64,000 bases of DNA from positions 214,079,194 to 214,143,193 of the forward strand of contig OV050031.1 of NCBI GenBank assembly GCA_920105625.2, read 5' to 3'. The stretch comes from Clusia tigrina. Its lineage: Eukaryota; Arthropoda; Insecta; Diptera; Clusiidae. The position numbers and the translations under genes were made by a program. Below are positions 3,320-58,881 of the stretch, piece after piece. Position 1 is the stretch's first letter, and every line of letters begins with the position of its first letter. The notes under the pieces are model-generated. The model was not told the DNA's origin. It did not search any database and was given only the letters and a program-made list of their open reading frames with translations.

Positions 3320-6300
3320 TATACGGTTGGTTGGTTGGTTAGTTCAGGTGGCTGATCCACGGCATCCTTGCATGAATCACAATTAGCGCCGTTTTATAAC
3401 CACTTCCCTCCTAAACGCTGGAAAAAGATGGGTTCTTATCCAGATCCACTTTGTGAAATTTAGGCACTTTAGAAGATCCTTCGGTTTTACAGCCGAGAGG
3501 TCGGATAGTCCTGCTAGAAAATAATTTCCCAGGGCTCTATTTCTTGCGCCCACCATAGCAGGGCAGTTACAAAGAAAGTGAGTTATTGTTTCCCTCTCGT
3601 CCGAGTCTTTACAACTTCTACAATAGTTATTGAACGGTCTATGCATTTTCTCCGCATGCGTCCCTACTACCCAGTGACCTGTAAAAACCGCCGTTTGTCG
3701 GCTACGCTTCCTGCTTATAAGATCCCTTGACCTAGCTATATTTTAGACTGTCCTGGTCGCCCGGGATGTATTTTACGTTTTAGGTGCCCTCCATCTTCTA
3801 ACCGCCAAGGAGAGACAGTACAGGTAGATGCCCCCCTTGAGCCCACCCAGAGAAACAGATACTAGTTCCACATAGGTTAGGTCAAGAGAGGCCCATCTGC
3901 GCGCTAATTTATCAGCCTATGGCCTGATTGATATTCCTATGGCCTGGAACCCAGATGATTGTGATGTCAGCATGAAGACTTAGCGCCCTAAGTTCATCCC
4001 TACACTGTCTGACCAACCTGGAGTTGATGGTGTTTGACTTTAGAGCCTTTATAGCAGCCTGGCTGTCCACAAAAATGTTAACCTTGCTCCTATGTCCTTC
4101 TCTAATGGATTGGGTAATTTGCCGACACTCCTCGTGATTGCGAGTACTTCTGCCTGAAAAACTGTAGCCTCATCAGGTAGGCGTGTGCAGTAATTGATGT
4201 TAGCGTGTGCTGTACCCCAGCATCTACCCCAAAATCCATTTTGGACCCATTTGTATAAATGGGTATATCATATTCCGTTTCAAATATTCGCCTTGACCAC
4301 TCTTCTCTTGAAGGAAATCTAATCGTGAAGTCCTTTTAAAGTCTAGTTGAGGTACTAGGTCGTCTATTGTTATTTGTGTTAGTTCCCTCGGCATTGCGTA
4401 TAGCACCTGTAGCAAGTTTGCTTATAATGTCAGTATATTAGTCGACGAAGCCAGACTTTTATTTCATTTGTACTGAACATCCCACCATAACCATACGGTC
4501 GTTCAGCCCAACAATCTGTCGCTTTTAAACTTAGTAAACTATTGCAGGCCAAATTTTTAATGTAAAGATCAATGTAGCATTACATTAAGTGCCTCCGAAG
4601 GACATATTCGTAGGTACCCCGCAACGCCGATGCCAGCTGCTCTTTAAACTCTACTGAGTCTCTGAACAATAAAGCCTTTTTCTAGCGCCGGCCACCAAAC
4701 TATTGAGCCGTAATTGAGTATTGGACGCACAATTGCTTCGTACATCCAATGAGGGATATGGGGACATAGTCCCCATTCTTTTCCGAACATTATTTTGCAT
4801 GAGTAGAAGGCTGCATAGGCCTTCCGGACCCGTTACTCTATATTGGTTCTCCAATTTACCTTGGGATCCAATATAACACCTAAGTATTTGGCCTTCTTTG
4901 CAAGTTTTAGCAGTCGTTCATTAAGAGTCGGAAGCTTAAAGATCGCAATTTTGGTCTTGTTAGTGAAGAGTATCAATTCTGTTTTTTCCGGATCCACACC
5001 TAGTCCTGTGGTCCAGGAATTCAGTTTGTCCAGTCCCTTTTGCATAATATCACATATTACGTTAGTAAACATGCCTGATGCAGCTATAACCGCATCGTCC
5101 GCATATGCTACCGTCTTAACCCCCATGGAGTCTAGTATGTTAAGTATATTGTCAATGACCAGTAGCCACAATAGTGGTGAAATCACCACGCCTAGTGGTC
5201 TTCCTATACTGACATGTTTTGTGACGACTTTATTGCCAAGCTCTGACTGAATGATCCTAGTATTAAGCATTGAAACTATTCAGTCCCTAAGAACTTCCTC
5301 TACACCTGCCCTGTTAAGAGAGTTCAGGATTGCGTTATTGCTAACATTGTTAAAAGCCCCTTCTATGTCTACGAAGGCTGCTAAAGTATACTGTTTATGG
5401 TGAATAGTTTCTTCCACTGATCAAATCACCTCATGTAAAGCTGTTTAAATAGATTTACCCTTGAGGTACGCATGTTGCGATTTCGAAAGGGGAAACTGAT
5501 TCACTATATGCCTAAGATGGATTTCTAAAACCAACTCCGTCGTTTTGAGGAGAAACAATGTAAGTGTCTAAAGTCCTTTGCTGACTCTTGCCCAATTTTT
5601 CCTGTCTCCACGACCTTTACTTTCCCCCAACTAAGGGGGATGTAATTAAAACGTATGCATGCCTTATATATCCCTTTAAGCCATGGTACCACCACAACCT
5701 GTAGCTTCTGCAACATGATCGCTTAGATTCCATCAAGGTCTGGTGATTTAGAAAGCAAAAAACCATCAATCGAGCATTTTATCTTTTCGTCCGTAAATAT
5801 CGAGTCGCAAACCGGTGGCAATTCCTTATCCGTTACGGACAATAGAGATACATCCGGGGTATCTTTCCAGTCTCGGAAGAGTGTTTGGAAGTCAAGTGTC
5901 TCCGAGGATGTTTCTGTCCATACACCATCTGACTTTTTGAGAAAAGAGGGGATGGTACGTTCAGATCCACAATATCAGGACAGTATCTTGCTGAGTCTTG
6001 CGGAAGTTGAGGTGCTTCGATTGATTCCCAAAATTCGCTCCAGCCATTGTTCTTGGCTTCCCTGATGGATTTTTTGTAAGTTTCGAGGCCCTCTTTGTAC
6101 GGAACCCAGATTGAATCTCTATAAAACTGGTTGAACAGTTTCCTGGTTCCGATAATTTCTTTGTCTACCATGGTGGACGGGTTATTCTACTCCTACTGAC
6201 GGGACAAGCGCACTTGTAAACCATATTAAAAGCTTCCTCAAGATTCCTTACTTTTTTCTCTATCGCCCTAGAAGATTCTACTTTTACTGTCTCGGAATTC

Positions 6301-7858: not shown

Positions 7859-8880
7859 TCATTGTTTTTCAATATATTCCCCTTGATGATCAATACACTT
7901 TTGCATTCGTTCAAACCATTTATCATAGCAGTTTCTCCATTCCTCTTGAGACATCTCCAAAACATGGTTTTTAAACGCTTCAACTGCTTCTTCGGCGCTC
8001 GTAAATCGTTGACCACACAATTTACCTTTGATATTCGGGAACAAGAAGAAGTCATTGGGTGCCAAATCAGGACTGTACGAAGGATGAGTCATCAATTCGA
8101 GCTTTTGACTGATCAAAAATTCACCTGTTTGACGAGATGTGTGAGAGCTCGCATTGTCATGATGGAGAATGATTTGTCTTTGGCGACTGGTTTTACGAAT
8201 TTCTCCGAAGACTTCCGGCAAACAAATGGTCGTGTACCACTCAGAATTGTCCGTATTACGTTGGTCAAGCGGAACAGTGGCCACATGGCATATTCGGCCG
8301 AAGAAACAGGCGACCATTTGCTTCGGAGTGCTTCTTCCACGAACAACTTTTGTTGGATTTAGCTCGTCTTGGAATACCACGGTCGATTATTGTTTTGTTT
8401 CCGGCTCATACTTTGTTTTGTTTCCGGTTCCATGATTCGTCACCTGTCACGATTTTGTACATGTCTTTGGAAGCACCACGGTCGAACTTTTAAATCATTT
8501 CCTTACACCAATTGACACGAGCCTTTTTTTGAGGGATTGTGGGATCCAACGCGAACAAATCTTTTTTCCAGCCAAATATTCATGCAATATTGAATGTATG
8601 GAAGTGGAAGTAATGCCCAAGGTGTCCTCTATCTAACGATATGTCACATAACGATATTGCATTATCAGTTCACGCACTTCATCGACGTTTTGTGGCACAA
8701 CAACCGATTTCGGCGACTGAACTACGACCACGATTGAATTCACTATACCAGCGATATGGTTTTTGATGGTGCTTTATCGCCATACAAATAACTGAGTTCA
8801 TCGACACAATCTTTTTGAGATAATCCAAGTCGACACTTGTGAAAAATTGATTTTCTTAAATCAATGTAAACAAAACACAT
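7859..8880 (-). pseudogene. mariner transposase (DD34D), frameshifted
   Basis: Transposase of the cut-and-paste mariner type. A start codon at 8880 opens a helix-turn-helix region ('GLSQKDCVDELSYLYGDK') before the frame breaks. The motif 'VTGDESW' near 8450 supplies the first catalytic Asp. The last 173 codons (8380-7859) are continuous and contain 'HHDNASSHTS' with the second Asp and 'SPDLAPNDFFLF' with the third. I count 34 residues between the second and third, so DD34D. The C-terminal 'CIDHQGEYIEKQ' and total length near 340 codons match the family. A small duplicated 'ccggaaacaaaacaa' near 8400 and stops in the N-terminal half show that the gene is inactive. Confidence 0.9.
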
Positions 8881-23769: not shown

Positions 23770-24160
23770 GCTCCTATAGCCGAGTGATGATAATGGTAAT
23801 CTCATAGTCGGAGAGTCGCTGGTTTGATTCTTATAAAGGTTTGTATGTATGTAAGTACATATGTAGTGGTGGTTGCCTAACAGGACACCGGCTTATTATA
23901 GTACCATACAAAAAAAGGGATATAGAGACCCTTCTCTTCCATCCAGTCAGCCGCCAAGTGTTATGGGCGAAGCTGAACAGAATTAAGTCCACTGAAATTA
24001 CAGAGTCAAGATCACTGAAAAACAGACTGCCCTCAGAGATTGGTCTCAAAATGCGTATTTCTAAATATGTTTCTCCTTGAGTTGTAGGCCTTAGTTACAA
24101 GAACTCATTCTCCAAAACCTTTCCAGATATAATTCGTTATGATGTAAGCGTAAAATTGTT
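23770..24160 (+). mobile_element. tRNA-derived SINE, longest copy
   Basis: The head has 'tagccgagtgatg' (A box) and 'ggtttgattct' (B box) about 42 bp apart, as in a tRNA gene. The body runs through 'ggttgcctaacaggacacc' and a segment ('ctccttgagttgtaggcc', 'aagaactcattctccaaa', 'gttatgatgtaagcg') that matches the SINE copies at 15.7 and 15.0 kb. A short open frame (23841-24080) is incidental. The tRNA likeness points to polymerase III transcription, but the head is too diverged to name the parent tRNA. Confidence 0.65.
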
Positions 24161-24239
24161 GTGTAAATGCAACATATGTATTTTTCCAAATCATCCCACT
24201 CTGCTTATCCTTACTTCATTGTCTATCAACCATTGTTAT

Positions 24240-25087
24240 CATATGTGCAACTTAGGTGTGACCTTTGACCAAAACTTATTTTTGGTAAACAAGTTGCAAC
24301 TGTAGTTAACAAAGCTACTCTGATTCAAGGCTACTCTGATTCAAGGCTTCTCTGATTCAAGGCTTCTCTGACTCTAGGCTTCATAAAACGCTGGGCAAAG
24401 GAGTTAAAAGACCCCTTTATTACCAAACTTCTGTACACTTCCCTGGTACGCCCATCATTAGAATCCGCAAGTGTTGTTTGGTGTCCTAGATATGTCTTTT
24501 ACTCTGATGATATTGAAACAGTTCAAAAGCGGTTTTTATTGTTTTGTCTACGTTCCCTTACAAGGAACTCCAATTTTCAACTTCCCTCTTATGTGACTCG
24601 TCTTAAACTTATTCGTCTCCCCTCTCTTAAAACCCGTAGAACTATGATTAATGCATGTTTTGTGTTTAAACTCATGAGTGGTGAAATAAAAAGTAGTTTT
24701 TTGCTTGGCATTCTTCACTTTAATGCTCCTGCAAGAAGAACAAGGAATTTAACTCCCTTGTATCTTCATCCTCGTAATCGGAACTATTTAGATTTTGCGC
24801 CGTTTCGTAGTGTGTGTTATGATTTCAATTTAGTTTCAGAGGTGATTTGTTTCAATGAATCCAAACATATATTGAAATCGAAAAAAACACTTTTCCTTTC
24901 AAACCGCGAGTAGTTCTCTTTGTATGGCTTTGTATATCTGTTTAATACCCTTCCTAAACCGCCTTTGAGGCATAGCGTAATTGTTGGGAAAGGGAGGTGG
25001 TTTTAGTGAGTAAAAATCTCACACTTCATGAGTGGTGCGTACCCCCTTGTGTCTTTGTGAAGATTTCCCCTCTCTTCGAAAAAAAAG
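24240..25087 (+). mobile_element. Jockey-clade retrotransposon 3' part with poly(A)
   Basis: The plus strand encodes the end of a Jockey-type RT: 'LGVTFDQN', 'LYTSLVRPSLESASVVW' and 'IETVQKRFLLFCLRSL', then 'RLPSLKTRRTMINACFVF' and a Cys-free C-terminus with a stop at 24911. About 165 bp of 3' untranslated sequence end in eight A residues at about 25079. The last 124 codons are uninterrupted. Near 24315-24378 four 16-bp tandem copies of 'cttctctgattcaagg' disrupt the reading frame. The element ends about 25 bp before the 28S rRNA fragment. Confidence 0.82.
24315..24378. repeat. 16-bp tandem repeat, four copies
   Basis: Units at 24315, 24331, 24347 and 24363 differ by one to three bases. They sit in the Jockey coding region and probably arose by slippage. 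Confidence 0.9.
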
Positions 25088-25109
25088 GTATACGAACGCT
25101 TGTGCAGTA

Positions 25110-25238
25110 GAGTTTTCTTTCCCCGCAAGATATTCCAATCCCATTCCTCTCGCTGTAGTTTCGCTAGATAGCAGATAGGAACAGTAGGAAATTCGTTAAT
25201 CTATTCATGGGCGGTACTAACTAGATGACATTTGGCTA
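25110..25238 (-). pseudogene. 28S rRNA fragment downstream of the R2 insertion site
   Basis: On the minus strand the fragment starts with 'tagccaaatg', the sequence just after the canonical R2 cleavage site in 28S rRNA. It continues through recognisable 28S blocks: 'catgaatagattaacga', 'tcctactgttcctatct', 'ctatctagcgaaac', 'gggattggaata' and 'gcggggaaagaa'. Compared with the conserved insect sequence it lacks a few bases after the first ten and carries scattered substitutions, so it is a diverged pseudogene. Its low-coordinate end stops near the Jockey poly(A). Confidence 0.9.
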
Positions 25239-26212
25239 CTTTTTTTTTAAAGGAAGTGGAAATCCATTTAGGAGTAATCGGCAGGAATACGAGTAGTGTG
25301 ATACTCATCTTAAAAAATAGATCACTCGCTAAACCACTTCAGGGTGCAACTTTTTTGATTGCGCCTGTGATGGAAAAGTAAGCGGCACTTATAGTAAATT
25401 CAGCAAAGCCAATAACTCCATACGCGGTGCCAGCACGAAACGTGGAAGAGTTAAAGTTCCGAACACAAATGGTCCAAACGATCATCTTCCGTGTACTGAT
25501 GATCGCAGTGACCTTTTTGCCGTTTGACAGTAAGTCTTCCACTGACTTCCAGCTCCAAATTCCACTCCAATTCAACGTGAAGGATGTGAATTGCACATCA
25601 CCAGCGTTGTATTTGTTTATGAAGTGCACCTTTAATTCCTGTGTGGCTTATTTCCTAAGCCTCCGGAAGTGCGCCTCCTCCGTCCGTCTGCCGTAGGCCA
25701 GCACCTGTGTGTAAAGTACAGAAACTGTTCTCTATTTAAATACTACTAAGTCTGATTTTTATAATCCCATACTGTTGTGAATTCTGGGCTCCACCTCGAC
25801 AACGAACTTTCGCTTAGCCCCCTATTCAACTAGTCAATCACGCTGTCGTGCCTCGCAATACGAGCCGTCTGTGTTCCGCTGCATTTCTGAACAATGTGAT
25901 TTGTGGTTTCCTCCTTGGGACAACGAGGCCTACACATTCAGTTTATTTATGCCTTACCCCTAGAAGTTGTAAACTTCGAAGGATCAGCATTTAGCTCCAC
26001 TCTAACACAAAGTACAAAATCATGTCCAATCAGTAACTTCGTCTTAATGTGCTCATGTGCATCACGCTAGACCCAACGATCAACAGAAGAATGAAGCCGA
26101 TCAATCCGCATTTCATTACTTTTGGCTCAAGAAGTTAGGATCCAACAATAAACTGTGTACTGGGTACTGAGCCTCTGCCCAATCCTAACAAACTCTTTGG
26201 CCAAGTGAGCAC
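25239..26212 (-). mobile_element. R2-clade retrotransposon, 5'-truncated, at the canonical 28S site
   Basis: The minus strand between the two 28S pieces encodes the end of an R2-type protein. There is 'VRVELNADPSKFTTSRGKA' near 26000, the Cys-Cys-His-Cys knuckle 'CPKEETTNHIVQKC' with 'ARIARHDSVID' at about 25925-25845, and a C-terminal block 'TLNWSGIWSWKSVEDLL' then 'RNFNSSTFRAG' in the open frame 25629-25339. The 3' end is nine A residues (25248-25240) and a G joined to 'tagccaaatg'. The body is under 1 kb, so RT is missing by 5' truncation. R2 elements encode one protein with a restriction-like endonuclease that cuts 28S genes at this point. Stops and frameshifts make this copy inactive. 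Confidence 0.9.
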
Positions 26213-26252
26213 CCAAGAGAGTTATAGTTGCTCCCGCCGTTGACCCGCTCAT
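26213..26252 (-). pseudogene. 28S rRNA fragment upstream of the R2 insertion site
   Basis: The minus strand reads 'cgggtcaacggcgggagc', then 'aactataactctctt' and 'ggg', matching the conserved 28S run that ends 'ctctcttaagg' just before the R2 site. The last bases are altered. Homology beyond 26252 is uncertain because that part of 28S is fast-evolving. Confidence 0.88.
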
Positions 26253-27059
26253 ATTGTTTTAAAGCATACGAATTTGTCTGAATTTTCAAATTTCTTCCCA
26301 CCAATAAGTGCTCCACTTGCAGCACTGACTAATATAATAAATATATATCCAACTATATGTAAATACATCTGCAGTTGTGATTAAGTGTCCAACGCCTTTG
26401 TCTACAATCGGCAGGTGTATTTGCATATCTCTTTCTGGTGAAATCATTAATCATTTTATTCCATTTTATTTGTTTAACGTGATTTTTTCGTCGCAACTGA
26501 TTTGTGCGGTAAACAAGTAAAAAACTTTACTTTTATTTATTTGTTTTCATTTTTATGCTGAATTTATGGCATTTTACTGCGACAGATTTAAATCAATTTG
26601 TTCAATTGCGTCAAACGGGCAAAAGTGGTGTTGAAATTGGAACTGAAAATAAATTATGGCAGCCGCGGAGGTAGAGAAGTGGGAATGGTCATTCACGCTG
26701 AATTGAATTTACTCGTATTTCTTATTGACGAGCATGGCCAAGTTTCAAGGTCTGATCTTGTGAACATAAATTAAGTAAAGGAATCAGAATTAATTTTATA
26801 TTTCAGGCACCTGACAGAAACATAATTACAATCCCAGGACTCTGTATTGAGTATTTCATTTACACAAGAATCCAGTCTCCACACTATATAGGATTGTTCT
26901 TCCCACTCAATATATCCGAGGAGTCTTAAAAATGCCAACTCCAAAGTTTACTCAAATCAACCACACACGCATTTGTTATGATTGCAAATTTTAGTTACAA
27001 ATTTTTGCCCAGTTGTAATTAGCGTTTCATTTACAACTCCATCTCCACAGACACAGCGC
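26253..27059. other. No gene recognised
   Basis: AT-rich DNA. The first 80 bp could be more 28S sequence, but I cannot confirm it. Nothing else is recognised. Confidence 0.4.
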
Positions 27060-27250: not shown

Positions 27251-27761
27251 GCTGCAGTATGCGTGCTGTTAAAATGCTCCAGCATTACTTTCAGTTTTCA
27301 GCACAGCTGTGCGTATCTGTGCGTGAAGTTGCGTGCCACGTTCGAGCTCCCACCAGCTCCCACCTGCAACGCAAATGGCTGTGGCGTTGCTGGCAGCCGG
27401 CCGAGTCAGTTTTTCTCAAGCCAGTTTGGCCGGCAGCAAGCTCAGAGTTTGCTCTATAAAATGCATGAATGAATTGCAATGAACTAGAAATCAGATTTTT
27501 AGTATTTTTTGCCATAAAGTTTAAAAGTCTAAATTTGGAAAAAATTTAATAAAAATATTTACACAATTCAATTCATGAAATTTGTGAAGCTGAACGCTTT
27601 TTAAATCGAGAATGTTTCAGGTTTTCTTAGCAAATTATTAGGCTTGATTTTTATGTATTTTTATGATTATTGTGACTACGTTTATTATCACCACGATCAA
27701 AAGCTCACAGCTCAATTAAGAACATGGTCAATACTTTTTGGGAATCTGTACTTTACAGGGA
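27251..27761. other. No gene recognised
   Basis: A GC-richer part (27260-27470) is open on both strands without a domain. The remainder is AT-rich. Confidence 0.35.
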
Positions 27762-28225
27762 GAGGGAGAGGGAGAGGGAGAGGGAGTGTGAGAGGGAGTG
27801 TGAGAGGGAGTGTGAGAGAGAGAGAGAGAGATAGAGGGAGATGGAGAGGGAGAGGGAGAGGGAGAGGGAGAGGGAGAGGGAGAGGGAGAGGGAGAGGGAG
27901 AGGGAGAGGGAGAGGGAGAGGGAGAGGGAGAGGGAGAGGGAGAGGGAGAGGGAGAGGGAGAGGGAGAGGGAGAGGGAGAGGGAGAGGGAGAGGGAGAGGG
28001 AGAGGGAGAGGGAGAGGGAGAGGGAGTGTGAGAGGGAGTGTGAGATAGAGATAGAGGGAGATGGAGTGGGAGAGGGAGTGAGGGAGAGGGAGGGAGAGAG
28101 GGAGAGGGAGAGTGAGAGAGAGAGAGTGAGAGATAGAGGGAGATGGAGTGGGAGAGGGAGGGAGAGAGGGAGAGGGAGAGGGAGAGGGTGAGGGTGAGGG
28201 TGAGGGTGAGGGAGAGGGAGAGAGA
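27762..28225. repeat. GAGAGG hexanucleotide array
   Basis: About 180 bp of nearly perfect 'agaggg' units (27841-28025) lie within a longer purine-only array, with 'gtgagagggagt' and 'gagagatagaggga' variants on both sides. All top-strand bases are essentially purine. The Arg-Gly and Arg-Glu frames across it are artefacts. Confidence 0.97.
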
Positions 28226-39989: not shown

Positions 39990-41385
39990 TCTATGGATTA
40001 ATTTTTTGTATAGACATTTTTTTCCCCTTCTTTTTTTGCAGCAAGTTTATTAATATTTTTTTTCTTGATTTTTCCTGTTTTTCTGCGGTTTTTCGATTGT
40101 GTTTCTTGTACTTTTATTTGTTTTTCTTGTTTAGATTTTTTTAAGATTTTTTTTTTTTTTTGGTTTTGTAAGGTTTTTGTTTTATTTTTCTTTTGTGTTG
40201 ATATTTTATGTTGCTTATTTATGTTTTTTGAATCATTTTTCTGCTGTGTTGATTTTTTTTTTATTTCATTTTTTGTGTTAATATTTCATTTTTGCTTTAT
40301 ATTGTTGGTTTTTTTAAATATTTTTTGTTTTTGTTTTCTTGTTTAGATTTTTAGAAATTTTGTTTTCCTCTTTTTTATGTTTTTCTTTTCTGTTGATTTT
40401 TTTTATATTTTTATTTTATTATTTTATATTTCCTTTTGCCTTTCTTATGTTTGGTTTTTTATTTCTTTTGTTTTTATGCTTCCTTCAATTATTCTAATCT
40501 GTTTTTTTCTTTTGCTTTTCTATGTTTTTTTTATGGTTAAATTTTGTTAGATTTTGTTCTTTTGCTTTTTTATATTTTTTATAAATTTTTTTGTTTAGAT
40601 TTGTCTCATTTATTTTTTATGTTTCCATTTGTTTTTCTAATGTTTTTCTTTTGTATATTTCCTTTTGTTTTTCTTATGTTTTGCTTTCTTATGTTTTCCT
40701 TTATTTTTCCACTGTTTAGTTTTCTTATGTTTCCTTTTGTTTTTCTAATCTTTAGCTTTTTATGTTTCCTTTTATTTTTCTAATATTAAGTTTTTTTCTT
40801 TTGCTTTTTTATGTTTTGTTTTATTTTTCTTGTTTAATTATTTTTCTTTTGCTTTTTATGTTTCGTTACGTTTTTCTTATGTTTGGATAATTAATTCTCT
40901 TGCTTTTTTAATTTCCTTTTAATTTTCTAATGTTTTGTTTTTTTCTTTTGCTTTTTTCAAGTTTTTTTTATTTATTTTTTTCTATTGCTTTTTTATGTTC
41001 AAATTTTGTTAGATTCTCTTCTTTTGTTTTTTTTATGTTTTTTAAATTTTTTTTTTATTGTTCCCTTTCATTGTTTAAGTTTCCTTTTGCTTCTCTTATG
41101 TTTATATTATTACTTTTCTTATGTTTCCTTTCATTTTCCGAATGTTTTGTTTTTTTTCCATTTTTTGTGTTTTTTATGTTTAAATTTTCTAAGATTTTTT
41201 CTTTTTACATTTAAAAAAAAAATTTTTTCTTTATTTTTTTCTTTCATTTTTTATGTTTTCTTTTGTTTTTCTCATGTTTCACTTTTTATGTTTCCTTTTG
41301 TTTTTCTTGTCTTTAAGTTTTTTGTTTGTTTGTTATTTTTGCTTTTCTTATTTTTGTTTTTCTTTTACTGTTTTTGTTTCTTGTT
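39990..41385. repeat. T-rich 1.4-kb tract of degenerate 'TTTTCTTATGTTTCC' units
   Basis: The top strand is overwhelmingly T, with recurring 'ttttgtttttcttatgtttcc' type phrases of irregular length. It looks like an eroded tandem array with strong strand asymmetry. The long Phe/Leu-rich frames across it, up to 213 codons, follow from TTT and CTT codons and are not genes. A GT run follows at 41390-41408. Confidence 0.85.
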
Positions 41386-43969
41386 CACTTGTGTGTGTGT
41401 GTGTGTGTTTGTTTACCGTTCACGCTTGACCTCAAATTGCATTTGCTTTTTGTTTTTATTGTCAGTACAACTTAATTGGCAGGTGAACATGTCTCCTGAC
41501 ATTTTTGGTGCCACATTTCTGCATCCGTGTGGGTTTTCGCTTTATTCATCCCACTTTCAAATCGTATGCGAAGTCGCAGAGCGAACATTTTATGCACTCA
41601 CTGCAATTGAGACAGAAAACGCGTAGACTCGGCGACTTCGGTGTGCGCAGCACATAATCGAAAAAAACGCCCACGGCAATTTGGCAGAACAAACGCCTGC
41701 AGGAGGATATTTGCATTTATACGACTTGGTGCTGTTATGGCGTAGTTCTAATTAAATGAAGTACCACTGCTGGCCTAGGGAGGCATTCACCATGCTCCAT
41801 TTAAGCTTTGGCTCTGGAAACTGGGAAGTTTTCCGTTAATTGTTTAGAGAAGTATGCAGAAAGCGGGCAGTGACCATTCAAAGCAGTAATTTTTCAGGAC
41901 TTATTTCTTTTTGTGGTCTGCACACCCAACTTTTATATTGAGTCTGGGCTGCATTGTTGCAGCTATTGTGCACTTACGACTACAATGCCCGGTTTCCATA
42001 CGTCAGGGTAACTCGCGCCGTTTGGCAGTGGTCGTACTTCAAAACTGGAAATTTATGCCTGGTTGGACTCTTTCTGCTGATTTATGCAGACACTCTGCCG
42101 CAAGTGACCCAATTTGGTTGGCATTCGCATAAAACTGATTTAAATCAGGCACAAATTTATGAGTGACACTGCAGTGGAGTGGAAGAGTAAGTAAGTCATA
42201 AAAATTTAATGGCAGCACGGTATCGAAGTTTTATTTTTGAAGTTTTTCACAAAATCATTTTTGGTTTATTCATTTTATATTTTAATAAACTGTCAGTTTT
42301 CTCTGTGAAAGTTGCTCAGCAGTGCTCGTGCGGCTTTGTCTTTGAGCAAAAAGCTGCTGACATTTGGGTATTTAATAATTTCATCATTATAATTTTAGCT
42401 GATAGTTGAGCGTAATAAAAGCTCTGCTAAAATTGTTTATGAGTTACTCTCAGGCATGTGCGGCAAAAGTGAAATGATTGACTGGAATAAAGCGGCTTCA
42501 CGTCAACCAATTTGATTGTGATTTGGACGAAATTTAAAATGATCTCTTTTAAGTTTTCAATCGCATACATTTAATTTCTCTACAAAAACTGGTCGCATAC
42601 ATGGCGATGATTATCTTTAGTGCCGTGGAAGAAAATGATGGTTTCATTGGGTTATCTCGAATACAATAATATTGAATGCAAACCTTACTCAAACGTGGAT
42701 TACAAATTTGATCATAAAAATACCTGTGAAGACACTGAATTAAGTAATAAAACCAAACTAAAGAAAATAGTGAAGATCAAGATGACTCTGGAACCATGTG
42801 ACAGGGTCACGTGTCAAGGCCAGCGACACTCCATTGAAATATTCATAATAATGTGAGCAAATCGGTAGTCATTCAATTCAGTTTCTGCAGATATTTATCA
42901 ACGAATTTGTTGTATTTGTAATAATAATAAAAATATTCATAGGCCAGTCTATAACAGAGCCTGCAGCACTCCTTCGCATTGATAGGCAAAACAATTGTTA
43001 GTATAATTGTATCTGCCTCAGACTCCAATACACCTGAAAAAGAAAGAGAAAATTTTCAATTTCGTACTCACTTTCCTCAAATCGCTTCACAACTGTCACG
43101 TAGCAAGAATGCCGATTGACTTTTGCCCGAGGGAATTACGTTTCTATATCATTATATTACTTACATAAACATATAAACTCGTATAAACTCGACTCCACAG
43201 AGGTAAAAGCGGAGATAGTAAGAAAATGAAACGGAAAATTCGCAGTACACAAGCAAATCCAATCACGTACTACGGAAAATTGCAGCATTGAAATGTGGCC
43301 AACACGAAATCAGTGATAGAACTAAGCAAGTAATTTCACTATTACAGTATTGTACGTAGAACAAGCATTGTCTACAGATATTGGTAGAAGGTTGATGGGG
43401 TGCAGTGGAGGCACCATTCGAGTTGCACTTTTGCTCTTCTGGTTACTTGCATTCAATACTTAGTGAAATTATCTTTTTAGTTGTTTTTCATTGCGATGCT
43501 CATGAAAGGGAAAGCCAATTACGGAAAGTGGACAGAAAACAGGAGTAAGAAGGGTCAGTGACAAAATAAGATTAAGTGTGATGAACTGCATCATAGTTGT
43601 AACAGGTAAAAATACACAGAACACAATAAGTGGCAGCGGTCATGAATGGTCAAGGAAGCAAGGTTTCTAGATGGGCAACTAACGAAATTTGAATTTGTCA
43701 ATTGAATAAACCGGTAAGGAATAGAATGTAAAATTGTCTTTTTCTTTACAAAAACCAGAAGAGTGAATTTCCTCTAATTGGGCAATGGTGTTGCAGAGAT
43801 AGTTTCAGAACCTGGAACCTTTATGGAGTACATGATGAAAAATATGAATCTTTTATGCACATACAAACATAGATGGTTTTTTGAAAACTATTCCAATCGG
43901 AAGGTCTATGCAGAAAAGTCTTGAAAGCAATAGAAAAGCAAGCAAATAGTTGATAAAGAAAGTTACACC
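41386..43969. other. No gene recognised; (GT)n at 41390-41408
   Basis: Open frames at 41911-42166 and 42620-42856 lack domains and good starts. The rest is ordinary AT-rich DNA. Confidence 0.4.
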
Positions 43970-45253: not shown

Positions 45254-46400
45254 AATAACAATAGTAATTTAGTTTTAGTAGTTTGCCCCATGGCCGACAC
45301 TGCGACCTAAAATATATTTTGTGTCATACTATATTTGTCATTAATGATCCATGTGATCACAACTATACGATATACTATGCCCTATAGGTTTAGTACTGGC
45401 GTTTCTTCCATAATACTATAGCATTTCGTCCGTTTGGTGATGTCAAAGCGTCACAATTAAAGTTATCAGGTTCTTTTCTACCTAGATGTTCCTTCTCTAG
45501 AGAAAGGAAGTAGCTGAAAATCATGTTCCTTCATTATCTTTTCCGCTTTATGTATGAATTTGAGAATGTCCCTAACAGGAGCATTCTTTATTTCTTCTAG
45601 AGCCAGCTGGTCGCTGTGGAATATATTCCTTCTGGTTCTTGCCAACGCAGTGCAGTCACACAGTATACGTTCCGTGGTTTCCTCTTCTTCTAGACAGAGC
45701 CGGCACTCCGCATCGTCAAGAATGTGGATTTTAGTCAGGTGATATTTTCGGTAGTAATGACCTGATAGAAAACCTACTATTTTTCCTATGTCTGCTTTGC
45801 ACATATTGCGAAATTCTTTATTGTAGGTGAATGGCCTTACCAGTCTTTTGGCTTGGCGAAGTCCCTCTATCCCTTCCCAGTGTGACATTCTGAGGCTATG
45901 TTCCCAGCTATCTACCCTGGAATTAGTCTCTGCCCAGTTGATACCACAGCATGGCTCCGGACCTATGAGGCTTGCTGCGGAACCGGCCCTAGCCAGCTCG
46001 TCAGCAATTTCATTGTCTTCAATCCCCGAGTGACCCGGGACGCAGCAAATTGTAACCTTATTTGTTGCACCCAGAGATTGTGGGTTGTTGAAGCATTCTT
46101 CCACCAGTTTCGATTCTAAACAATAGAAGGTAATGCTTGTAATGCAGCTAGACTATCTGAATAGATGGTTATGTGTGGGCCCTTGATACCGTTTTTCAGA
46201 TTTGTCCCCACACAGATTAAGATTGCTTGAATTTCAGCCTGGAAGACGCTAGGCCAGCTCCCCATTGCTTCTGAGATTTTGGTATTTGGTCCATAGACCC
46301 CTGCAGCGACTCCGGTGCTTGTTTTTGAGCCGTCTGTGAACCATTCTAGACTTCTAGGGTCGACCCAAGGTCCTCTATGTCCCATTCATCACGGTCTGAG
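45254..46400 (-). mobile_element. Non-LTR retrotransposon, family E copy 2, 5'-truncated, 16-bp target duplication
   Basis: The insert lies between direct repeats 'atgtcctggtaataat' at 45238-45253 and 46401-46416. It begins just upstream of RNase H and runs to a 3' end rich in ATT triplets, next to the duplication. 5' truncation and a long target duplication are normal products of target-primed reverse transcription. It is related to copy 1 immediately to its left. Confidence 0.85.
45478..46385 (-). pseudogene. ORF2 C-terminus: RNase H, linker, zinc knuckle (one frame break)
   Basis: The upper frame (46385-46116) holds RNase H with 'EWFTDGSKTSTGVAAGVYGP', 'SVFQAEIQAI' and 'IYSDSLAALQAL', so the Asp, Glu and Asp of the active site are all kept. 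It stops at 46116. The next frame (46104-45478, 208 codons) continues 'CCVPGHSGIEDNEIADELAR', 'SLIGPEPCCG', 'IVGFLSGHYYRKYHL', the knuckle 'CRLCLEEEETTERILCDC' and 'LARTRRNIF', ending at a proper stop. A single lesion separates the halves. The RT is missing through 5' truncation. Confidence 0.88.
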
Positions 46401-51228: not shown

Positions 51229-53960
51229 GTTTTTTTTTTCGACGTAACCCACGGGCCCACTTAATCGACCGAGGGGCATGTTTGCATAACGTACGGAACC
51301 AGTAACCGATTAGCAACAGTCCGGACTGTCCTGAACTCGCGATCTCAACCACGACAATGGGGATGTGCAATAAAAAAGCCACAGATTAACTAATCAACAG
51401 CTGTGTTGATGACTCAACAATCAACTATTGAAATATGACAGTAATGATCTATTAATAACAAATAGGGGAGAAGAAACATCAAACAATGAGGAGTATTTGT
51501 TAAACTCGTCAAGTATACCACGGACTGGATCAGACAATGCACAACTAGATCTTCACATATTCAATATAATGGGAATATAATTTCTGGACGGACGCATAGG
51601 AACAGATAAATATATATTACTCAATAACACAGATGATATGGTTTGACCACTAAGCAATTTTACTACGAAACAAACAGTTATTACCCTTCAACTTTTTAAC
51701 GTGGTAATTAGAATCATTTTAAACTGTATTGTACGGTGGAAGACTAAGCAACGAATTCCATTTGAATAAACGCAGAGCAAATAACAGAAACTACTTTTGA
51801 ACAGATTCAATTATAGCAATATAGCAGTTGTAGTGGGGATTCCAAACGCTAGAGGCATATTCCAAAATTGGACGAACAAGGGATATATAAAGACTTTTTG
51901 TGGCATGTGTATCGTTAAATTCTTTCGACCACCTTGTTATAAAGCTAAGGACACCCTTTGCCTTATCTACACAGGTGTTAATATGAAGGTTGTAGCGATG
52001 TTTCGGATTCATTGTCACGGCAAGATCCCCAAAACTAAAGACTCTTGTTAGATAATTCTTACAAATAGTATATGGATGACGAAAAGGGTCTCTTCTAGAG
52101 AAAGCCATATACTTACACTTGTCATGACGACAAATGAAGAGCACCAAGACGACAATGAAGAAATATCATCCTGACCCATTTCCTGAAATGCAGGTGAATA
52201 GTGAGATAAATAAAGCTCCACATCGTCAGCGAGCATTAAAATGTTAGAAAATTCAATGGCAGATGGAAGGTCATTTACAAAAAGTAAGAAAGGAACTGGA
52301 TCTATATGACTTCCCTGGCGAACGCCGGAAGAAGCATCAATTTTCTCTGACAAAGCATCCTAGAAAAAAACCTTTGTGTGTGGGAATACCAATACAATTT
52401 GGTTTCTTAACTAGCAGGTTATGGTTAACTTTGTCAATGGCCTTACTGAAGTCTGTATAAATTATATCAGTTTGCAGACCTGCAGAGAAACCCTGCAGAG
52501 AAACCCTGAATAACTGAAGAAGAGAATTCAAGAAGATTTGTAACAGTGGATCTTCCTTTGGGAAATTACAGACGTTACTGAGAAGGCTAAATGAGAGGTA
52601 ATGATGGACTCAAACAATTTAGGGAGATTACTTAGTTTAGCTATTCCACGGTAATTGGATACATCAGACTTAGATCCACTTTTATGGAGCGGAATCAAAT
52701 AAGACTGTCCAACAAACATTAAAATAACCTAACTCAAGTGAAGCATTAAAAACACAAGTAAGGGGTGAAAAACTCAGCACACACTTTTAAAATACAGGTA
52801 GGAATTTGTCTGGGGCAGGTAGTAATGACATTTTTAAAGATTTAAGATTATAAGGAACATCTTCAGGCAAGATGGAAAGCATACACCCATAATTTAATGA
52901 AGACAAATGCTATGGATAAGCGGAATTTGCATCGTGCAGGTCACTAGAATAAGTAAATTTTAAGAAGTCTGCAAAGAAATTGTATATAGACAGATCATCA
53001 GTAGATACGGATCCTTTCCAATTCATTGTTAAAGGGAACTCAGAGTTTTTACGCTTCAAATTAGCGAAGCTATGAAACGCTTTGCTACAGTTGTGAATTT
53101 AACATTTCAACTTGTTTATATTAGCTTTGTAGCATGATGCATTTAAAATTTGATAACTTCTTCTGAGAATCGCATATTTAGCATAATCAACTCCACTTCC
53201 CGATCTCTGGTAATGTTTAAAGGATCGATTCTGTATATTTTTCAATTTCTGAAGTTGTCTTGTTGACCATAATGGACCCCCCTAAAGAAGAATATTTAAT
53301 CTAAGGAACACAGAGCTCAAAACAAGTATAAAGGAGGTTATTCAATCCTGACACCCACTCATCTGGATTAGTTCTATAGGTAGGCCGCATATAAAAGTTG
53401 TTTCAACTGTACATAATCAGTTTTTTTTAATATAATAGCGTCTAGATTTTGTATCATGAAATGATGTGTGAGACTCAGCAAAAACATATTCAACAGCAAC
53501 ACGAAGTGTAGGATGGTAACAATCCTCAGGGTACTCCAGAGCAATACAAGAAAATACACTAATTTCAGATGAGTTCGTAGCAGAAATCTGATCTACAATT
53601 CTTTAATTTTTACTTGGCACCGAACTAATCTGCCGCAAGCCAAGCTCAGCCATAGCAACCAAAAACTCATAGAAGCATTCACAATTCGTACAAGGCAATA
53701 GTTCATTTATATCATCATCAAAGATACAATTTACATGCTACAAGTTGAAGTCACCGAATACTATTAAGAATCATTTGATATCTAAGGTTTCATATCTAAG
53801 GTTTCCATCTTGGGTTTTACTGTAATTTGTAGCGTATCTTGTGTTGATCATGTCAACAATGTGGTAAAAAAGTTTATCATACACTCCGAAATTTAAGAAT
53901 TTCGGCAGATTTCGCTCCCCTTGACACTCGACGACAGCTAGTTGTTCATCTATATATCTA
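51229..53960 (-). mobile_element. Jockey-clade retrotransposon with poly(A), about 2.7 kb
   Basis: The minus-strand element ends in ten A residues (51239-51230) after a 3' untranslated region. Going up, it holds the C-terminus, RT and part of an endonuclease. Jockey elements have no RNase H, and none is seen. It is the most complete Jockey copy in the window, though its 5' part is lost or unrecognisable above about 53960. Confidence 0.82.
51440..53960 (-). pseudogene. Jockey ORF2 remnant: endonuclease, RT, C-terminus
   Basis: From the top, endonuclease blocks are 'FLIVFGDFNL' (53760) with the catalytic Asp and Asn, and 'CYHPTLRVAVEY' near 53510. RT blocks are 'YLIPLHKSGSKSDVSNYRGI' (52700), 'QTDIIYTDFSKAIDKVNHNL' (52480), 'SGVRQGSHIDPVPFLLFVND' (52325) and 'MLADDVELY' in place of YADD. 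Then follow 'VFSFGDLAVTMNPK', 'LYISLVRPILEYASSVWNP' and 'FALRLFKWNSLLSLPPYN' (51740). Frame changes near 52340 and 52150 and many stops after 51740 make it inactive. The protein would nick DNA and reverse-transcribe the element RNA. Confidence 0.82.
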
Positions 53961-56613: not shown

Positions 56614-56976
56614 GGCAGAAGTGGTTAAAGGTCAAACCCAGCCTAGTCGGATACCTCCCCATCATGCAATGCCCCGTCAGCACCGAAACCGTAGTGCTGA
56701 CGGACTCTCGTCTGAGTTGAAGTAGCTGAAGCATACGCTTCTTGCTGAGGCTAGGCCAGGTTAGCCTAGAGATACGGCAAGAATATTCCTCCTCGCATAG
56801 TTTGTTGGCCTCATGGAAATACCTGCATTTGATCGCCAGCCTGGCTGTAGCGAGAGGGATGCGTATATCTAGAGAAGGGTCTGGATGGTGGGTCTCATGG
56901 AAATACCTGCATTTGATCGCCAGCCTGGCTGTACCGATAGGGATGCGTATGTCTACAGAAGGGTCTGGCTGGTTGG
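56614..56976 (-). mobile_element. LOA-like element, family H, 5' half with in-frame duplication
   Basis: The minus-strand frame reads 'RIPLATARLAIKCRYFHEAN', 'CRISRLTWPSLSKKRML' and 'VSVLTGHCMMGRYPTRLG', then 'FNHFCRGCG', where the family C insertion cuts it. The 84-bp segment encoding 'IRIP.(A/G)TARLAIKCRYFHE' is present twice in tandem (unit starts at 56810 and 56894), keeping the frame open. Confidence 0.82.
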
Positions 56977-57876
56977 TTGGTTGGCTAAAGTGGTTGATCT
57001 GCCCGACACGTCTCACAATGAGCGGTGTAGCGCCGTTTTGATACCACTTCCTCACCTAGTAACGGAATTAAGGTAGACGCTACAACCACCCCGTAGAGTC
57101 TAGGTAACATAGTAATTTCTTCGGACTGACCTCCGAGCAGTCCGATACGTTATCAAGAAAGAACGCCCCAGAAATCTATACCTTCTCTTTGTCAAGGCCG
57201 GCCATGCGAAAAGGAAATGGAAGAGTGTTTCTTTCTGGGTTAAGTCATCATAGCTTCTGCAGTGGTTGTTGAAAGGGATACGGAGTCTCTCTGCCCACTC
57301 ACTAGTGGCCAGTGTAAACTGCCGTCAGCCTTGCCGTTTCTATGTGATCCCTATTAATTAACTGGCGTGTTCTACCCGCATTATATGAGGGCAATGTCGT
57401 GCAACTTCGGATGGCAGTGTGACAGCCTTAGTAAGCTCTCCTGCTTCGCAATTTCCCTCAATGTCCCTGAGATCAGATACCCAGACTAGGTGAATTATGA
57501 AATGCATGGAGAGCTCGTTTAGAGCTGACTGACATTTTTGCGCTGGCTCCCGCAAGAGATCTAATGGCAGCTTGGCTCGCCGAGAAGAATTTGATTCTGA
57601 CACCAAAAACCTCATATCTTAGAACCCAATTCACTGCGTGATAAATTGCCATTACTTCTGCCTGAAATTCGCTGCATTGGTCAGGGAGTCTAAGCGAGAA
57701 GCCAAAGTCCAACTTGTTGGAGAAGATCCCGTTGTCCCCAAACCTAGGGCCGTCTGTGTAGATATCCAGAGTGTCATCGGTGATCACTCTGTTTCTGATC
57801 CAGTCGTCTCTGCTTAGGATAATGAAGTCGAACCCCCGATTAAGGTTGGAACTGAAGCCAAAAGAAGCCAAATCAG
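56965..57876 (-). mobile_element. LOA-like element, family D copy 2 (RNase H to 3' end)
   Basis: The 3' end has 'ggttggttggttgg' and 'agcggtgtagcgccgtttt', matching family D copy 1. From 57870 down, the minus strand encodes RNase H ('LDIYTDGPRFGDNG', 'SEFQAEVMAIYHAVN', 'KFFSASQAAIRSLAG'), then in another frame 'VWVSDLRDIEGNCEAGELTK'. A decayed linker and knuckle follow to about 57000. The second active-site Asp strand reads SAS rather than SDS. Its upper end meets the transposase at about 57876. Confidence 0.82.
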
Positions 57877-58881
57877 TTGATTTCACGCCATTCACAGGAA
57901 CTGGGAAACTCTCAGTCCACATTGTGGCGAATTTTGAGTAAAGATCTTAGCTCACCCTTTTACATGACCAAATTAACTCAAGAACTGAAGTCTTTTGATC
58001 ATGTGAAGCATGGGAACTTCTCCGATTGGTCTCTGCAAATGTTTGAAGAAAATCCTGAATTTCATCGAAAAACTATCTTCAGCGATGAAGGTCATTTTTG
58101 GCTTAATAGGTCTCAGTCCACATTGTGGCGAATTTTGGGTAAAGATCTTAGCCTACCCTCTTACAAGATCAAATTAACTCAAGAACTGTAGCTTCTTGAT
58201 CATTGGAAGCGCCGAGGCTTCTTCGATTGGGCTTTGCAAAAGTTTGAAGAACATCCTAAATTGAATAGAAAATTATTTTTCAGTTATGAAGCTCGTTTTT
58301 GGCTTAATGGTTTTGTCAATAAGCAACAAATGACCCACATATGGTTCAAAGGACTTCATTGTATCCACCAAAAGTGACCATGCGGTAGGGTGTGTTTTCA
58401 TGCCGGATGTGTGATTGGACCGTATTATTTCGTCGACGAACATGATCGCTATGTTACGGTCAATAGAACTGGCTATTGTTTATGTTGAAAGACTATTATT
58501 GGCCAGAGTTGGATGGATTTGACATCAGTGATATGTGGTTCCAACAAGATGGTGATACAGGCCACACAGCTGGTCAAATAATTAATCTATTGAAGGGGAA
58601 GTTAGGTAATCGTGTTTCCTCGAGAAGTCGTCCGGTCGAATGGCCACTTCACTCTAGCGATTTAACGCTGTTGTATTTCTATTTATGGGGTTGCATTAAG
58701 GTCGTTAGTTTATGCCAACAAGCCAACAACGTTAAAGGAGCCGGGGAATAATATTGAAAGCTAATTTGCCAACGTTGTGACCCATTTGTATGGAAGAGTA
58801 GTGGAAAATTGGCTCCAAATAGTCGATCGCAGCGAATGTGACCGCAGTGGTCATAGCAACGAGATCGAATTCCGTACTTGA
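57877..58881 (+). pseudogene. Tc1/mariner-superfamily (IS630-type) transposase with internal in-frame duplication
   Basis: The plus strand encodes an insect Tc3-like DDE transposase: 'SRHSQELG', 'STLWRILSKDL', 'KLTQELKSFDH', 'KTIFSDEGHFWLN' (first catalytic Asp), 'VIGPYYFVDEHDRYVTVNR', 'DMWFQQDGDTGHTA' (second Asp), 'SSDLTLLYFYLWG' and 'VVENW', ending 'GHSNEIEFRT' and a stop at 58879. The stretch 'STLWRIL...HFWLN' is duplicated in tandem, 201 bp apart (57911 and 58112). In the second copy the Asp is Tyr ('FFSYEARFWLNG'). The third catalytic position is also Tyr. Frame changes near 58190 and 58380 complete the inactivation. Confidence 0.85.

Follow-up and report, generated by a model that had tools for sequence, protein, structure and literature searches.

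A dead, 5'-truncated R2 retrotransposon seated at its usual site within an isolated, decayed 28S rRNA fragment of Clusia tigrina

How does an R2 retrotransposon come to lie in a small piece of 28S ribosomal RNA (rRNA) gene with no further ribosomal DNA (rDNA) around it? This question is raised by a locus on contig OV050031.1 of the fly Clusia tigrina (Diptera, Clusiidae; assembly GCA_920105625.2), of which we analyzed a stretch of 64,000 nucleotides (forward-strand positions 214,079,194 to 214,143,193; called the window here, with position 1 as its first letter). The analysis revealed that the locus is a dead, 5'-truncated R2 retrotransposon seated at its usual site within a decayed 28S fragment. 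Read directly from the letters, the order on the minus strand is GAGCGGGTCAACGGCGGGAGCAACTATAACTCTCTT, about 975 bp, and then A9-G-TAGCCAAATGTCATCTAG. The locus is composed of the following parts, the R2 body being a non-long-terminal-repeat (non-LTR) element with a 3' untranslated region (3'UTR):

26215..26255, minus strand: piece of a 28S rRNA pseudogene on the upstream side of the R2 site, with CTCTCTT at its end (nhmmer at 26253-26215; blastn to the 28S of reference contig L002 with 87.8% identity over 41 bases); its true start is uncertain
25239..26214, minus strand: R2 body, broken and 5'-truncated, with the CCHC knuckle of the C-terminus and a putative endonuclease region, followed by the 3'UTR, A9 and an extra G (phmmer to R2 proteins in PDB, and junction letters)
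25881..25925, minus strand: knuckle coding stretch RCPKEETTNHIVQKC, aligned to an R2 protein chain
25109..25238, minus strand: piece of a 28S rRNA pseudogene on the downstream side of the R2 site, beginning TAGCCAAATG, with a 5-bp deletion (Rfam RF02543 when given alone; nhmmer)

For identification of rRNA gene sequence, eukaryotic rDNA found in seven contigs of prokaryote assemblies was used as reference, standing in for dipteran or host 28S. Viral contigs yielded no dipteran 28S, and neither did papers searched for 28S strings, which led to a stick-insect and a structure paper. A 28S profile was built from the large subunit (LSU) parts of all seven contigs and a small subunit (SSU) profile from three of them, and both were searched against the window at E up to 10. 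The 28S profile gave two matches, both on the minus strand, at 25240-25109 (E 3.7e-27, model 2377-2513) and 26253-26215 (E 2.2e-7, model 2336-2374). In 28S these matches directly follow one another, and their meeting point is the R2 site CTCTCTTAAGG^TAGCC. In the 64 kb neither 28S beyond the two pieces nor any 18S was detected by the profiles, and an intact R2 target site (31-mer, up to three mismatches) is absent as well. By blastn, both pieces were matched by all seven eukaryotic 28S contigs, and the two matches abut in six of them; in the seventh (L005) the 28S continues through the R2 site. In this contaminant contig the 28S is interrupted, about 20 bp past the R2 site, by a group I intron (L005:5392-5807). 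A previous interpretation made from the letters alone (the sequence-only reading) had described an isolated minus-strand 28S fragment holding an R2 at its canonical site, with about 170 bp of rRNA left and no flanking rDNA. All of this is borne out: the surviving 28S amounts to about 171 bp (41 + 130), both flanks match 28S, and an R2 protein match lies between them. A live rDNA unit, with intact 28S and neighbouring rRNA genes, was rejected, as the window holds only this decayed remnant and no SSU match.

Rfam gave a less even picture. The downstream piece was recognised as LSU_rRNA_eukarya when 25090-25245 was submitted alone (80.4 bits, E 8e-20) and was no longer listed once longer sequence was supplied, including the whole-window scans at gathering score, which reported no rRNA, and at E up to 5, which reported seven matches, all non-rRNA. 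Because these scans overlooked the true 28S piece, the absence of other rDNA from the window rests on blastn and nhmmer. The upstream piece reached only 11.7 bits in Rfam (E 0.29; cut-off 50), and no match was found when it was submitted within 196 bp. Such a weak score would suit a chance resemblance, or a different long interspersed nuclear element (LINE) at a 28S-like sequence. This is hardly credible for two consecutive 28S pieces with the E values given above that enclose an R2 protein match.

The junctions locate the insertion almost to the base. On the 3' side, A9 occupies 25248-25240, a single G follows at 25239, and 28S begins at 25238, so that the junction is canonical to within one base. 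The sequence-only reading had let 28S resume at the exact R2 position after nine A residues; the A9 and the TAGCC site hold, with one extra G standing between them. Insertion at the R2 28S site AAGG^TAGCC is supported, as the 28S pieces meet there with the extra G before TAGCC. On the 5' side, the upstream 28S stops at CTCTCTT and is followed by GG (26214-26213), which can be assigned to either 28S or R2. The claimed upstream flank (26213-26252) is confirmed as 28S, with the correction that the recognised piece ends at 26215 and the adjacent GG is ambiguous. Depending on the assignment of GG, 2 or 4 bp of 28S were lost at this side; if GG is counted as 28S, the joined flanks align continuously to 28S with AA absent at the junction. 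In arthropods, the 3' ends of R2 all join 28S at the same position, while the 5' junctions differ (PMC3774820; here and below, sources given by PMC number are cited from parts of their text). In the stick insect Bacillus rossius, two 5'-truncated R2 variants also have 28S ending in CTCTCTT (PMC4370867, Table 3); the locus described here differs from them in being isolated and decayed.

The interior could be assigned to R2 by its protein remnants, as had been proposed. A read-through of the R2 piece compared with PDB by phmmer gave a best E of 7.8e-17 over 171 query residues; R2 proteins make up five of the six sequences listed, the sixth being an unrelated enzyme (E 0.61). The frame with the knuckle (frame 1) matched an R2 protein at E 6.7e-10 and, with E between 8e-5 and 0.022, three other R2 sequences. 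The CCHC knuckle at the C-terminus is of R2 type, with R2 proteins again accounting for five of the six sequences listed and an unrelated sixth at E 0.49. The endonuclease frame alone is weak: the best E is 0.0058, further R2 matches are at 0.072 and 1.5, and three unrelated sequences are at 0.11-0.68, so that three of the six listed are R2. At the position of the endonuclease K-PD motif the fossil reads KSD, where chain 8gh6 has KPD. We take the PDB chains 8gh6 and 8ibw to be Bombyx R2. With the R2 of Bombyx and its relatives the locus shares the 28S insertion site, the C-terminal CCHC knuckle with a putative endonuclease region, and 5' truncation with a small 28S deletion. In contrast to them, it retains only the C-terminal part and the 3'UTR, carries stops and a frame change, and has no surrounding rDNA. 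The N-terminal zinc finger, Myb and reverse transcriptase domains, which R2 encodes in a single open reading frame, are missing by 5' truncation, and the 5' end, which in R2 bears a ribozyme like that of hepatitis delta virus, falls outside the body. A search of the R2 piece against viral contigs gave no relatives. A minus-strand search of 24500-27000 (E up to 1) gave no match to the Rfam R2 3'UTR element RF00524. This family is built on silkmoth R2s, and the missing match is therefore not diagnostic; nor is the element a defining feature of all R2.

Both parts of the locus are decayed. Over aligned columns that are invariant among five references (L003 and L005 were omitted as divergent or intron-bearing), 16 of 126 are changed in the 28S pieces, and over those invariant among all seven, 8 of 80; seven further gap columns in both counts comprise five in the lost conserved stretch and two at the R2 junction. 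Because the affected positions are common to distant eukaryotes, the changes identify a pseudogene irrespective of the host species. The same changes bear on a possible assembly error in which ordinary rDNA was joined to a LINE-rich contig. Ribosomal DNA is a common source of misassembly; here both pieces differ at positions held by distant eukaryotes, one carries the 5-bp deletion, and no more rDNA follows on either side, which makes a misjoin very unlikely. Misassembly with live rDNA, which the sequence-only reading had named as a possible refutation, was rejected on these grounds. The R2 body contains six stops and one frame change in 176 codons. In a simulation of random substitution with codons drawn from the fossil itself (400 runs), the share of runs with at least six stops rose from 1.75% at 0.1 substitutions per site through 6% (0.15), 18% (0.2) and 42% (0.3) to 56% at 0.4. 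Within wide limits, the R2 and 28S parts are similarly old, and R2 does not seem the younger of the two.

For the origin of the locus we favour, with a probability of roughly 0.6, that an R2-occupied piece of 28S left the rDNA as DNA, came to rest among LINE fragments and decayed there. Anatomy, site, truncation and decay are documented by the results above; the sequence of events and the way in which the piece left the array, as we infer them, would be as follows. R2 protein would have nicked a 28S gene at the usual site, and R2 RNA would have been reverse-transcribed from the nick; an early stop of reverse transcription would have left a 5'-truncated copy with 2-4 bp of 28S lost on its 5' side. 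The R2-bearing piece would then have moved out of the array at the DNA level, through ectopic recombination, through break repair or in the form of a circle, and settled among other LINE fragments, where, with no renewal by concerted evolution, 28S and R2 would have decayed together. Several points weigh against this account. Pfam recognised neither R2 piece, and a large protein database returned for the R2 piece 12 candidates, none at E 0.001, and 319 candidates, none at E 1. The exit route leaves no decisive trace, and only little 28S remains. R2 decay could also predate the departure and begin inside the array; Bacillus rossius has a degenerate R2 within its rDNA array (PMC4370867). Finally, a repeat at the edges of the locus would fit its insertion as a unit instead.

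The sequence-only reading had left two origins open, the moved R2-bearing piece and an R2 that jumped into a 28S pseudogene. In the second case R2, keeping its preferred target, would have entered a 28S fragment that was already outside the array. Precedents for such a jump exist: Bombyx R1 and R2 can insert at targets outside 28S rDNA (Xiong, 1988, cited in PMC10257491), and five species of Drosophila have R2 copies outside 28S genes (PMC2718515). If the jump came late, R2 should be younger than its flanks, and the stop load of R2 is not below that expected from the change rate of 28S, a mild argument with wide limits. The moved piece fits somewhat better because R2 is not less decayed than the 28S flanks, and we regard the jump as unlikely; an early jump would be indistinguishable from the favoured origin.

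The insertion as a unit concerns the immediate edges of the locus, which contain the following features:

25085..25096, strand not assigned: candidate target-site duplication, low-coordinate copy AAGGTATACGAA, matching 26261-26272 at 10 of 12 positions
26261..26272, strand not assigned: candidate target-site duplication, high-coordinate copy AAAGCATACGAA, matching 25085-25096 at 10 of 12 positions; could instead be host 28S
24107..25086, plus strand: neighbouring LINE tail with reverse-transcriptase C-terminus, 3'UTR and A8 (25079-25086), identified by protein homologues and tblastn

R2 is transcribed together with rRNA. A LINE could have copied a 28S-R2-28S co-transcript into DNA and inserted it as one unit beside the older Jockey-like tail, with the 12-bp edge repeat as the target-site duplication. 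The two copies lie just outside both 28S edges, and among random pairs in the window 114 of 4000 (flanks of 33 by 41 bp) or 61 of 4000 (26 by 30 bp) were as good. With the wider flanks that were searched first (33 by 171 bp), 20 of 200 shuffles were as good, and shorter, stricter words gave nothing: the edges share no 10-mer with one mismatch and no exact 8-mer. Expressed as chance rates, these mixed controls amount to 1.5%, 2.9% and 10%. The repeat contains two mismatches, and its copies are placed 5 and 12 bp beyond the 28S ends as recognised; because it was found after looking, it is a hint only. Its high copy could also be 28S, in which case TTCGTATGCTTT would be expected in host 28S before the R2 site; the corresponding stick-insect sequence, printed in a primer, does not resemble this copy (PMC4370867). 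As a parallel, R1 copies outside rDNA retain some 28S, either 7-28 bp from its upstream or at most 14 bp from its downstream side (PMC2718515). The 28S flanks here are far longer than in these cases, and the downstream piece has no A tail after it. Unit insertion is conceivable but the less probable course. If true, the locus would be a processed pseudogene of an R2-bearing rRNA, and R2 would be able to exit rDNA as RNA together with its host gene.

R2 outside rDNA has already been described, in Drosophila and, by citation, in Bombyx, and the locus is a further old case of a known phenomenon. In a survey of 12 Drosophila genomes, R2 was found outside 28S genes in D. pseudoobscura, D. sechellia, D. 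simulans, D. willistoni and D. yakuba, many of these copies being incomplete and differing by 1-2% from rDNA R2, and none outside rDNA was reported, in the part of the text cited, for D. melanogaster, D. ananassae and D. persimilis (Stage and Eickbush, 2009; PMC2718515). The locus resembles these copies in being incomplete and not within a 28S gene. It differs in keeping 28S on both sides and in looking much older, as judged from the 28S changes and the stops rather than from a live R2. In Inachis io, R2 outside rDNA was not detected according to the cited part of PMC10257491, and a study of honey bee rDNA expects non-functional R2 copies to lie mostly in heavily mutated 28S (PMC2048585). Among the titles listed by searches of an open library, none concerns an R2 seated within an isolated 28S pseudogene piece, by which we do not claim that no such report exists; the cited parts of PMC13188248, PMC4862133 and PMC3636483 contain nothing on this anatomy. 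Old R2 is seldom seen because concerted evolution keeps R2 copies inside rDNA uniform. A copy frozen outside the array is a record of an ancient host R2 and host 28S, and in its truncated end target-primed reverse transcription has left a direct trace. The locus would help to establish whether R2 was once, or is still, present in the host lineage.

On its low side the locus is bordered by the plus-strand LINE tail, whose A8 sits 22 bp from the 28S edge. The sequence-only reading had called it a Jockey tail. Protein homology established the LINE tail (21 homologous proteins among 62 candidates, best E 2.0e-48, one with PF00078), and we presume the element to be Jockey-like. Translated searches with the 21 homologues cover 24107-24904, and Pfam gave nothing on 24356-24913. 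Had the LINE inserted into the 28S piece, a duplicate of its 3' flank would be expected; matches to this flank are not above chance (seven including the site itself, 6.69 expected), with none between 8007 and 25087. A weak RF00524 match lies in the LINE 3'UTR at 24994-25072 on the plus strand (19.8 bits, cut-off 38; E 0.33 in a 2.5-kb search), which was unlisted in the whole-window search and is probably a chance resemblance, though odd beside an R2. The high side is AT-rich as described before, with 30.4% GC at 26256-26600 compared to 39.1% for the window.

Further repeats and mobile elements were observed elsewhere in the window. A second copy of a related LINE is located at 51424-52329 on the minus strand, with matches across more than one frame. 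Also on the minus strand are retroelement pieces at 4689-5279 (RVT_1, E 8.6e-12) and 45478-46152 (RNase H, E 5.6e-5, below cut-off), and a transposase-like open reading frame (ORF) at 7859-8386, presumably mariner-like (DDE_3, E 1.7e-6, 28.4 bits, just below the Pfam cut-off of 28.6). The region 40001-41600 is very T-rich with degenerate T-rich tandem repeats (19.4% GC and an AT skew of -0.67 at 40001-41000); a few extra blastn rows to 28S at 40.1-41.3 kb fall in this T-rich stretch and were discarded as low-complexity. An array of about 77 copies of AGGGAG occupies 27757-28222, and tandem duplications are present as 84-bp units at 56810-56977, inside a stop-to-stop ORF, and as 201-bp units at 57910-58308.
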